DNA from: Terriglobia bacterium
GTDB taxonomy: Bacteria > Acidobacteriota > Terriglobia > Acidiferrales > UBA7541
Length of the DNA: 64,000 nucleotides
Reading direction: 5' to 3'
NCBI GenBank assembly: GCA_020073705.1
Contig: JAIQES010000014.1
Location: 1 to 64,000, forward strand
Both the position numbers and the translations under genes were made by a program. Position 1 is the first letter of the stretch; each line of letters begins with the position of its first letter. Below the pieces are notes generated by a model. The model had not been told where the DNA came from. It ran no database searches and saw only the letters and a program-made list of their open reading frames with translations. Below, piece by piece: positions 19,353 through 22,049 of this stretch.

Positions 19353-20378
19353 ATGTCTCCTTTCCCTGTAGCGGTTCGTGTAGCCATTGCAGGCGCGGCA
19401 TCCCTGCGTGGCAAGGATTTGAAGCAGTGGCTTGAGGAAGCCAATTTCCCGGCAGCGGAAATCCGTCTGCTCGACGAGGAAATTGTGGCCGGTACTCTGA
19501 CCGAGGCAGGCGGCGAACCGGCAGTTGTCGAGACGGTGGATGAAGACAGTTTCGAGCGCGTGCGGTTCGCTTTTTTTGCCGGGTCAGCGGCGTTTTCAGC
19601 TCGCCATGGTGCTGAGGCGCGCCGTGCGGGCGCGACTGTGATTGATCTGAGTGGAGGCCTTGCGGCCGAATCCGGCGCGCGGTCCTGGATCCCGGCACTG
19701 GACTCGATCCTGCCGCCACCGGTCGGAAAAGTTGCGCCAGGCGAATCACAGACCTTATTTCTGGCGCCGTCGGCGCCTGCAGACGTGGCGATTTCACTTT
19801 CTGCGGCGTTTGCGCCGATGGGACTCGATAGGCTTGTCCTGACGTTCTTCCAGCCTGTGTCGGAGCGCGGGCGGGAGGGTGTCGAGGAATTGGAAAGCCA
19901 GGTGGTCCAACTCCTTTCCTTCGAACCAATTTCGCAAAGCGTCTTTGACAGCCAGGTTGGGTTCAATATGCTTGCAAGCTATGGTGAGGGAAGCAGCGAA
20001 AAGCTGGCCGATGTTCGCTCAGGATATGTGGGCGAAGTTCGAAACTACCTGGCAGGCCGCGCGCCATTGCCGGCCATCGCTGTGGTGGCGGCTCCAGTGT
20101 TCTATTCCCACGCATTCACTGCATACGCCGAGTTTAAGGCGCCTCCTGCGCTGGAAGATCTCGTAGCCCGCATGCAAATTGCGGGCTTGAAGGTGGCCCC
20201 GGCGAATGATGGGGCGCCGACAAATGTCAGCGTTGCCGGGGAAGGGCGGCCCGTGCTCGGGCAACCGGAGCGTGATTCGAGCATCGAAAGCGGTGTCTGG
20301 CTTTGGGGCGCGGCGGACAATCTGCGGGTACCCACCGCGAACGCCGTGGCCATCGCGGAGAAGCTCCTTGCATCGTAA
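19353..20378 (+). CDS. Aspartate-semialdehyde dehydrogenase-like protein lacking the catalytic Cys
   Basis: 341 residues. The fold is that of aspartate-semialdehyde dehydrogenase / USG-1: AIAGAASLRGKDLKQWLEE at the N-terminus, FAFFAGSAAFSARHGAEARRAGATVIDLSGG near 75-105, and APVFYSHAFTAYAEF near 240 with the conserved His. The catalytic-cysteine segment, normally like NPNCST, is replaced by LFLAPSAPADVAISL near 133-147 with no Cys; only one-enzyme dead or altered chemistry is likely. It could be a USG-1-like paralogue with a binding role. It lies 3 bp after pssA and its end overlaps the likely lptE start. Confidence 0.8.
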   Translation: MSPFPVAVRVAIAGAASLRGKDLKQWLEEANFPAAEIRLLDEEIVAGTLTEAGGEPAVVETVDEDSFERVRFAFFAGSAAFSARHGAEARRAGATVIDLSGGLAAESGARSWIPALDSILPPPVGKVAPGESQTLFLAPSAPADVAISLSAAFAPMGLDRLVLTFFQPVSERGREGVEELESQVVQLLSFEPISQSVFDSQVGFNMLASYGEGSSEKLADVRSGYVGEVRNYLAGRAPLPAIAVVAAPVFYSHAFTAYAEFKAPPALEDLVARMQIAGLKVAPANDGAPTNVSVAGEGRPVLGQPERDSSIESGVWLWGAADNLRVPTANAVAIAEKLLAS

Positions 20379-21006
20379 CTCACAAGGCGAGACCAGCCAC
20401 AGAGACACCGAGTATCGGATTGCTGCTGCTATACGCGGCCGCTTTCCATTAGGATTCCCTGTTTCTTTTCTTGCTCTGTGCCTCTGTGTCTCTGTAGCCT
20501 TATTCCTGTCCGCTTGCGGCTATCATGTCGGCGGAACGGCTTCGCGCTTGCCTCCCGGACTCAAAGTTATCTCGGTGCCTGCGCTTGAAAACCGGACGAG
20601 TCGCTATCGCGTCGAACAACTCATGACCGAAGCCGTGATTCATGAATTTCTCGCGCGCACGAAGTACCGGATCGTCTCGACCGGAGATTCGGCTGATGCG
20701 GTACTGCACGGCGAAATTACGAGCCTCGAAACAACCCCCGTGGTATTCGACACCACGACGATTCCGAACACGAATGCCGCGGCGGCCCGAGTCACCGTGA
20801 TGCTTGTGTCCGTGCGGCTCAAAGTGTGGCTCGAGGAGCGTGAAACGAAAAAGGTTCTCTACCGGAACGATAACTTCCTCTTTCGCGAGCCTTACGAGGT
20901 TTCGACGAATACAGCAACTTTCTTTGACGAACAAGGGCCGGCGCTGGGCCGCATGGCGCGGGATTTCGCCTCACGGCTGGTCGCGGACGTGCTGGAGAAC
21001 TTTTGA
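20368..21006 (+). CDS. lptE: LPS-assembly lipoprotein LptE
   Basis: Lipoprotein with lipobox LSAC followed by GYHVGGTASRLPPGLK, the LptE/RlpB opening. LptE plugs LptD and helps place LPS in the outer membrane. Later motifs are VPALENRTSRYRVEQLMTEA and LREPYEVS-like FREPYEVSTN. No ATG, GTG or TTG lies in frame between the upstream stop and the lipobox; TTG 20368, with GGAGAAG about 6 bases before it, is the best start and gives 212 residues with a long polar leader. The hydrophobic part of the signal is encoded by an arm of an inverted repeat (20396-20498). Confidence 0.78.
   Translation: MHRNSQGETSHRDTEYRIAAAIRGRFPLGFPVSFLALCLCVSVALFLSACGYHVGGTASRLPPGLKVISVPALENRTSRYRVEQLMTEAVIHEFLARTKYRIVSTGDSADAVLHGEITSLETTPVVFDTTTIPNTNAAAARVTVMLVSVRLKVWLEERETKKVLYRNDNFLFREPYEVSTNTATFFDEQGPALGRMARDFASRLVADVLENF
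20395..20498. repeat. Inverted repeat at the 5' end of lptE
   Basis: AGCCACAGAGACACCGAG (20395-20412) is answered by CTCTGTGTCTCTGTAGC (20482-20498), the reverse complement with two mismatches; the right side also contains a tandem CTCTGTG unit. The style matches dispersed CTCTGTG-type intergenic repeats known from several phyla. The right arm lies inside the lptE signal-peptide coding sequence. Confidence 0.6.
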
Positions 21007-22049
21007 TGGCACCGCTCTCGCCTGAGCAGCTTCTCGGACGGCTGGTGAAGGGGAAGCCCGTCCCGGGGATTCTTCTGCTGGGCGGAGAAACGTACTTGCG
21101 TGAATTGTGCGCCCGGAAAATTTCGGATGCCTATGTGCCGGAAGGAGTCCGCGATTGGGGCGTCACGCGATTTTCCGCCGCCGCCGACTCGCTTTCTGCG
21201 ATTCTCGGCCAGGCACAGACACTGCCGATGCTTGCGCCGCGGCAGGTGATTTTCGTCAGTGACGTGGCAGCCTGGGAGCGCCTGGGCGACGATTCTCGCG
21301 ACGCGCTTGTGATTCAATTATCGGCATACCTGGATAATCCTGCGCCGTTTTCCGTGCTCGTGTTTGAAGCAAACGCTTTGGACAAGCGAATGCGTCTCGG
21401 GAAGATGTTTGCGGAGAAAACAGTGGTCGTCGCCGCCGAGCTTTCGAACGATCCCGCGGAGCGTGCCAAACTGGCCTGGGCGCTCGCTTTCGAAATGGCG
21501 CGTGAGTTGGGTGTGGAGCTGGAGCGCGACGCCGCAGAAGAACTCTCGGAGATTTTCAACGGGGACCTCGCGGCAATCCGCACGGAACTCGAAAAACTGG
21601 CGGCCTATGTGGGCGACCGCCGCCGCGTCACGCGCGCCGACGTCGAACTGCTGGCCGTATCGGCCCGGAAGTATTCGGTCTGGGAGCTGGCGGAAATGCT
21701 TGCTTCGCGCCAGCCCTCGCTTGCCCTGGAATTCCTGGATAGCTTGTTGCGGGAGGGCGAACAGCCGGCTCAGTTGCTCGGGGCCCTGGCATGGATGTAC
21801 CGCAAATTGCTCGAAGCGCAGGAACTGCCCGCAGGCGCCACGGGATGGCAGGCCGCCAGCCGTCTCGGCATGAGGCCGGCCACCGCCGAACTGGCGGTGC
21901 GGCAATCGCGAAAGTTTCCCAGGACGCAGCTCACCAGGGGACTGGCGGCTCTGTACGAGGCGGACAGCCGCCTGAAATCGGGCGGCACAAGCCAGCGCGC
22001 CGTGATGGAATTTCTGGTGGCACAGCTTGCCTCATCCACCCTGGCATAG
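21006..22049 (+). CDS. holA: DNA polymerase III delta subunit
   Basis: 347 residues from ATG 21006, overlapping the lptE stop as TGATG. The delta subunit opens the sliding clamp within the clamp loader. The N-terminal GILLLGGETYLRELCARKI, central VLVFEANALDKRMRLGKMF, DPAERAKLAW and the C-terminal collar AYVGDRRRVTRADVELLAVSARKYSVWELAEML match HolA. It lacks a functional Walker A, as expected. lptE-holA adjacency is common in bacteria, which supports both calls. Confidence 0.92.
   Translation: MAPLSPEQLLGRLVKGKPVPGILLLGGETYLRELCARKISDAYVPEGVRDWGVTRFSAAADSLSAILGQAQTLPMLAPRQVIFVSDVAAWERLGDDSRDALVIQLSAYLDNPAPFSVLVFEANALDKRMRLGKMFAEKTVVVAAELSNDPAERAKLAWALAFEMARELGVELERDAAEELSEIFNGDLAAIRTELEKLAAYVGDRRRVTRADVELLAVSARKYSVWELAEMLASRQPSLALEFLDSLLREGEQPAQLLGALAWMYRKLLEAQELPAGATGWQAASRLGMRPATAELAVRQSRKFPRTQLTRGLAALYEADSRLKSGGTSQRAVMEFLVAQLASSTLA

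Follow-up and report, generated by a model that had tools for sequence, protein, structure and literature searches.

The signal peptide of the LptE lipoprotein encoded in the window (the whole stretch of 64,000 nucleotides analysed here, contig C38 of a 3.79 Mb, Terriglobia-like Acidobacteriota metagenome-assembled genome in 78 contigs) is encoded in part by a real, dispersed inverted repeat, the right arm of which codes for the core of the signal. The repeat, called here the CTCTGTG repeat, occurs elsewhere in the same genome, is open in the lptE reading frame and is shared, in more or less worn form, across the genus, which belongs to the soil bacteria. We consider it very probable that a short dispersed repeat was inserted between the coupled start of lptE and its lipobox, and that its right arm became the core of the signal.

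All features of the locus lie on the forward strand. The lptE coding sequence, including its stop codon, most likely spans positions 20368–21006, and its product, scanned from the ATG at 20206, matches the Pfam LptE profile (PF04390, E = 1.4e-11; 45.5 bits against a curated cut-off of 23). We take this product to be an outer-membrane assembly lipoprotein. The gene is preceded by an asd-like gene for a semialdehyde dehydrogenase (19353–20378; PF02774, 8.3e-14, and PF01118, 2.2e-11) and followed by holA, encoding the DNA polymerase III delta subunit (21006–22049; PF21694, 1e-17, and PF06144, 8.3e-11), which overlaps the lptE stop codon by one base. The nearest named relatives of this LptE come from Acidobacteriota metagenome-assembled genomes, including 'Candidatus Acidiferrum typicum' RYN_24 and several Terriglobia bins, and names of other phyla stand on two of 49 records of LptE relatives. 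The lipobox LSAC is encoded at 20506–20517, with its cysteine codon, recognised by sequence, at 20515–20517; this cysteine is invariant in the 12 LptE proteins aligned, as in a lipoprotein-type lipobox.

The left arm of the repeat (20395–20412) lies in the leader and encodes the hydrophilic SHRDTE of the n-region; it is followed by a spacer (20413–20473) that is open in the lptE frame and by the right arm (20474–20498). The two arms are complementary at 88% over 17 nt (20396–20412 with 20482–20498) or at 83% over 18 nt (20395–20412 with 20474–20491). In the lptE frame the right arm reads CTG TGC CTC TGT GTC TCT GTA GCC, that is LCLCVSVA, the core of the h-region (20476–20499), which is continued by LFLSAC, with 15 nt between the end of LCLCVSVA and the cysteine codon. 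The preliminary description of this DNA had placed most of the hydrophobic core, just before LSAC, in the right arm and the left arm in the preceding leader, and both placements are confirmed.

The arms are composed of tandem 8-nt units, CACNGAGN, and of their reverse complement. Within the window, CTCTGTGTCTCTGT with at most two mismatches occurs three times (0.27 expected), all three in the lptE leader. The exact motif CACNGAGNCACNGAG has eight matches in the window genome, distributed over five elements, lptE among them, and is present in 56 of the 89 genomes of the family, with a maximum of 41 matches (G006), where we calculate a chance expectation of roughly 0.5 per genome. A reversed pattern cannot serve as null for this motif, since the arms have a period of 8 and the reverse matches the same tandem (its unused counts in the window genome were 7, 17 and 3). 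Similar two-armed elements with variable spacers are found at C13:92435–92544, between pyrC-like and thiD-like ORFs (by eye), and at C7:106130–106176, so that the layout at lptE is that of a repeat family. Further elements are located at C35:25415–25442 and at C51:27945–27973, the latter perhaps paired with C51:28096–28110. The earlier proposal of an LptE signal built from a dispersed inverted repeat was examined with a sequence-only model, R1, built from 12 arms that exclude those of lptE and include two from elsewhere in the window genome (C35 and C51). R1 retrieved eight matches in the window genome, including both lptE arms (E = 2.8e-4 and 0.052 per genome): the right one at 20474–20497, on the reverse strand, with 23 bits and the left one with 15.9 bits. 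The proposal is thus borne out, as is the expectation that a genome-wide count would reveal other copies. Across the eight genomes of the window genus (g1) and a second genus (g13), R1 gave 53 matches at E ≤ 1 in seven genomes and none in G002. One copy of the window genome (C51:27945–27973) and one of G005 (C45:306815–306843) adjoin the same acyl-CoA-synthetase-like gene and are apparently orthologous (by eye), so that inheritance seems to extend to copies at other places than lptE.

Translation most likely enters lptE upstream of the repeat, by coupling to asd, and would then read through both arms. In-frame starts cluster at the asd end, as an ATG, GTG or TTG is found within 20 nt before it in 47 of 53 usable lptE loci, which are related and hence not 53 independent trials (of the 62 loci, five had no asd in reach and four no cysteine motif). 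The commonest offsets from the asd end are –4 (20 loci) and –11 (11 loci), and the distances from asd to the cysteine codon fall 0, 26 and 27 times into the three phases. The best start candidate in the window, the TTG at 20368–20370, stands at –11, counted back from the last base of asd with its stop codon, a placement that is also dictated by the codons of asd itself. It is preceded at 7 nt by GGAG (20357–20360), a predicted Shine-Dalgarno-like site, so that the likely ribosome site and start of lptE sit within the last codons of the asd-like gene. From this TTG the predicted signal is long, with 49 residues ahead of the cysteine, and contains no further in-frame ATG, GTG or TTG up to the lipobox; in G002, the open frame has none of these codons 5' of the h-region. 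The preliminary description had stated that no start codon lies between the upstream stop and the lipobox, which holds if the stop of asd is meant; the lptE frame itself is open from about 20191 and contains the ATG at 20206 and other starts inside asd. It had also favoured TTG 20368, as we do, with entry through the repeat, instead of the upstream entry suggested here. Annotators should be aware that the lptE start in this genus is probably a TTG within asd and that gene callers could misplace it.

A search of 61 genomes, the window genome included, recovered LptE in 58. The right arm, or a worn version of it, is present in the lptE signals of all six genomes of g1 and of two of g13. Over 62 lptE loci, R1 gave nine matches at E ≤ 10, seven of them in lptE leaders: both arms in the window genome (G000), the right arm in G003, G004, G005 and G027, and the left arm in G017. 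The two others, both in L117 and 3' of lptE, are weak (E = 1.2 and 3.7). R1 does not recognise the worn arms of G001 and G002 or the worn right arm of G017, and these were assigned by position and resemblance. In the comparison of N-termini proposed earlier, R1 matched nothing at E ≤ 10 in the leaders of the 54 lptE loci from other genera, and those whose sequences were inspected show unrelated signals; this outcome, too, favours the earlier proposal. In g1, the residues before the cysteine are LCLCVSVA (G000, G004 and G005), LRLCVTVA (G003), QCLCVVVA (G002) and LVFCVSAA (G001), and the LCVSVA-like residues end 15 nt from the cysteine codon in all six genomes and 30 nt from it in the two of g13 (by eye), where G027 retains both arms and G017 worn ones. 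g1 forms one clade with full bootstrap support. The capture is common to the whole genus and is therefore not recent in the window genome.

Relative to the G005 form, differences in the arm fall 5, 4 and 13 times on the first, second and third codon positions (binomial P = 0.012, uncorrected for relatedness), as expected if the peptide is the thing kept. A neutral simulation of arm decay gave P = 0.49 for G003, 0.14 for G002 and 0.03 for G001; this is weak when taken alone, being compatible with unconstrained decay in G003 and G002 and speaking only weakly against it in G001. In the mature part of lptE, third positions of codons for identical residues differ by 48–55% between the window genome and its relatives. 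The two arms (20395–20412 and 20474–20498) look less worn than third positions in the neighbouring lptE codons; homogenisation among copies or a later insertion might explain this low wear.

A second repeat has been laid over the first in sister species. In G001, G002, G004 and G005 (L015, L016, L017 and L018), the left arm was not found, and a repeat of 7-nt period, AAATCTC/AAATTTG, is seen instead between asd and the h-region (by eye). Its motif AAATYTSAAATYTSAAAT is abundant in five of the six g1 genomes (26 matches in G001, 68 in G002, 16 in G003, 43 in G004 and 50 in G005), occurs once in G027 and is absent from G000 and G017, with no control match in the 12 genomes searched. This heptamer repeat offers in-frame starts followed by lysine, such as TTG AAA TCT CAA ATT in G004. 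The window genome keeps the two-armed CTCTGTG form without it.

Other readings of the locus must be weighed against capture. In the cores of signal peptides the second codon position is rich in pyrimidines, and G028, which lacks the repeat, has a TTTTCTCTTTTCTC-like core, so that the h-region could be merely rich in CTCTGTG-like codons and unrelated to the repeat. Such a coincidence is very improbable: left arms are present in G000 and G027, and R1 scores the right arms of G000, G004, G005 and G027 at 20.9–29.1 bits, against no match at E ≤ 10 in the 54 leaders outside the two genera. The repeat could alternatively serve as a regulatory or mRNA-structure element, with the coding of the core as a tolerated by-product, and its arms do pair in the predicted RNA fold of 20340–20530 (z = –2.07; 7 of 200 shuffles were as good). 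However, the right-arm residues persist in the four sister genomes in which no left arm was found, and no Rfam match at E ≤ 1 was obtained in 19900–20900; we thus regard this explanation as unlikely, although less so than coincidence.

A more serious question concerns the number of insertions. The same repeat may have entered lptE several times at a hot spot, instead of once in an ancestor, a possibility to which we give appreciable weight while holding it to be the less probable one. The different cysteine spacings of g1 and g13, the arms that look less worn than neighbouring third positions and the presence of unrelated repeats at lptE elsewhere are in its favour, as is the fact that the trees do not resolve a g1+g13 clade. 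Nevertheless, that clade is not rejected either (p-AU = 0.32), and the identical 15-nt spacing in six genomes indicates one event within g1. Across the two genera there may therefore have been two insertions instead of one.

The CTCTGTG family was also searched for at other genes. A pattern of right arm plus lipobox, applied to 399 genomes of the class, returned 11 rows in 10 genomes (the reversed control gave one match, in G264), four of which are lptE (one in G000, two in G004 and one in G005). Six of the non-lptE rows were discarded, as they have the arm and the lipobox in different frames or a frame that stops 3–12 residues past the cysteine. The seventh, L070, was discarded for its position antisense to an ORF of 354 residues that resembles a metallo-beta-lactamase-fold hydrolase (by eye); its own frame has no Pfam match. 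Of the 53 R1 matches in g1 and g13, 41 were checked by their longest open frame, six of these being at lptE; the 12 left out are the weakest (E of 0.238 and above), one of them the G017 lptE arm. Sixteen places inspected in detail, by eye and without Pfam, showed nothing signal-like for an exported protein, and several precede cytoplasmic-looking genes, such as lpxD (by eye); the remaining matches were judged from the longest frame alone. Likewise, 78 distinct arms in the CTCTGTG sense, from 70 loci in six further genomes, yielded 44 open-frame candidates and no real signal (by eye). These mostly by-eye negatives leave lptE as the only apparent export signal of this family, and since the checked non-lptE copies gave no real signal, capture appears to be rare per copy.

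Unrelated repeats are found at the same gene in other Acidobacteriota. A search of the phylum recovered LptE in 126 of 169 genomes, and 80 leaders, one per genus, were taken. Inverted repeats of at least 13 nt are present in nine of these and in 10 of 160 control windows, rates that are not clearly different, but the three best leader repeats score 25, 24 and 20 against 11 for the best control. (A previous scan of these leaders, which recognised the lipobox in just 60 of the 80, with six inverted repeats against 8 in 120 controls, was replaced; in the first set of loci, inverted repeats occur in 5 of 62 leaders and 5 of 244 control windows, two of the five being the heptamer repeat.) Two of the three best-scoring leaders, those of G472 (L277) and G495 (L244), are captures, both by a TGTCCTTGG repeat. 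In G472, the left arm follows immediately on an in-frame stop and contains an ATG, the sole other in-frame start candidate being a TTG just 5' of the right arm. The right arm in turn encodes FLCVLGVLGV, within GLFLCVLGVLGVSSAAFSTVGC; the repeat thus provides start codon, n-region and core together. In G495 it provides the core, with a right arm reading VLCVLGGGS before TAGC. When one mismatch is allowed, the motif TGTCCTTGGTGTCCTTNG is matched 26 times in G472 (twice at lptE) and five times in G495 (once at lptE), and never in the control; these genomes are of the same family and may represent one event. In G399 (L126), a GGACACGG repeat with 50-nt arms, paired at 46 of 50 positions, covers the lptE start region and the n-region; with lptE counted, 18 exact matches to the core motif of this repeat were found in that genome, and none in the control. 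The third of the best leaders, L251 (G111), has the highest-scoring inverted repeat of all, yet the likely GTG start comes just after the right arm (by eye), and this leader was rejected, as were L226, L234, L248, L262, L268 and L274, whose scores are not above the best control. In L299 (G537), the LptE signal holds FFLCALCVISVSSV, from a CTCTGTG-like stretch without inverted partner. Long asd–lptE gaps in L032, L095, L096 and L119 contain AACTTAAAACTTA-like stretches, perhaps another repeat.

The TGTCCTTGG repeat apparently also supplies the signals of two VWA proteins of G472. Of the 24 other TGTCCTTGGTGTCCTTNG matches of that genome, which fall into 18 stretches, two coincide by eye with the signals of proteins of exported type, whose N-terminal hydrophobic stretches are encoded by the repeat. 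Both genes are on the forward strand of contig C58 (L322:1367–2410 and L323:1443–2999) and both products match TIGR03436, acidobact_VWFA (3.5e-53 and 8.6e-68, respectively); the L322 protein also matches Pfam VWA (4.9e-12), and that of L323 has no Pfam match. In L323 the right arm is present and the left arm is not visible.

As to how capture could proceed, an inverted repeat would have landed between the lptE start at the asd end and the lipobox, and, the insert being open in the lptE frame, translation from TTG 20368 would run through it. Of its two arms, the first to be translated, CACAGAG, would be read as hydrophilic, and the second, CTCTGTG, on average as hydrophobic in all three frames. 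In 12 arms from other loci, the mean Kyte-Doolittle hydropathies of the three frames are 1.16, 1.17 and 1.24 for the CTCTGTG strand and –2.02, –1.84 and –2.24 for the CACAGAG strand, although single arms vary (the lowest right-arm value is –0.67, and one to four of the 12 arms contain a stop in each frame). Since the frames of the two strands differ in this way, and the arm order of a palindromic element is the same in both orientations, such an element tends to read hydrophilic and then hydrophobic either way, and could arrive as a nearly ready-made n-region and h-region. The right arm would then have become the hydrophobic core, and its amino acids would since have been conserved more than its bases. 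Signal hydropathy in the eight captured cases (2.72–3.36) compares with a median of 2.75 (1.79–3.89) in the 54 others. Export and lipidation of the product, the replacement of an older core and this order of events are read from the sequences and are probable to that extent. The preliminary proposal that a repeat was captured as export signal is supported, with the corrections that the capture is genus-wide and that unrelated repeats were captured at lptE elsewhere.

Repeat-derived signal peptides are already known from the enterobacterial RU-2 element in YPO1552, a putative exported protein of 144 residues in Yersinia, as reported by Delihas (2007; PMC2759123); what is new here is thus a variant and not the phenomenon. 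Compared with RU-2 as presented there, the gene is lptE, the repeat persists throughout a genus with wear visible at the level of codons, and other, unrelated repeats are found repeatedly at this gene. The palindromic elements of Rickettsia (Ogata 2000, 2002) are similar in that they, too, are palindromes placed in frame within coding genes; as described in a review (PMC10969869), the genes concerned are metabolic, numerous and unrelated to one another. In contrast, apart from the lptE copy, which encodes the signal peptide, the CTCTGTG copies inspected in detail are not in genes, a separation based on the description of these elements. REP elements, tagged with GTAG or CGTC (PMC3733652), are likewise short, palindromic and dispersed, but the CTCTGTG arm consensus, TAGCCACAGAGnCACGGAGnCACAGAGAAA, carries neither tag (by eye, on the consensus only), and its arms are tandem 8-nt units. 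The repeat has terminal inverted repeats, as do MITEs. In open-licence PubMed Central papers we found no account of the CTCTGTG repeat or of repeat-made LptE signals; the recurrence of repeat capture at lptE and the further repeat overlaid in sister species are new here.

Together, the three families found at LptE, namely the CTCTGTG octamer (g1 and g13), TGTCCTTGG (G472 and G495) and GGACACGG (G399), are unrelated, and we lean slightly towards the view that inverted repeats with a pyrimidine-rich second arm constitute a standing, orientation-independent source of export signals in Acidobacteriota. The reading-frame property of the CTCTGTG arms would offer a simple explanation, open to testing, of how export signals can arise from such repeats, and these loci provide comparative cases of scattered repeat DNA turning into a working part of a protein while the parent repeat is still recognisable.
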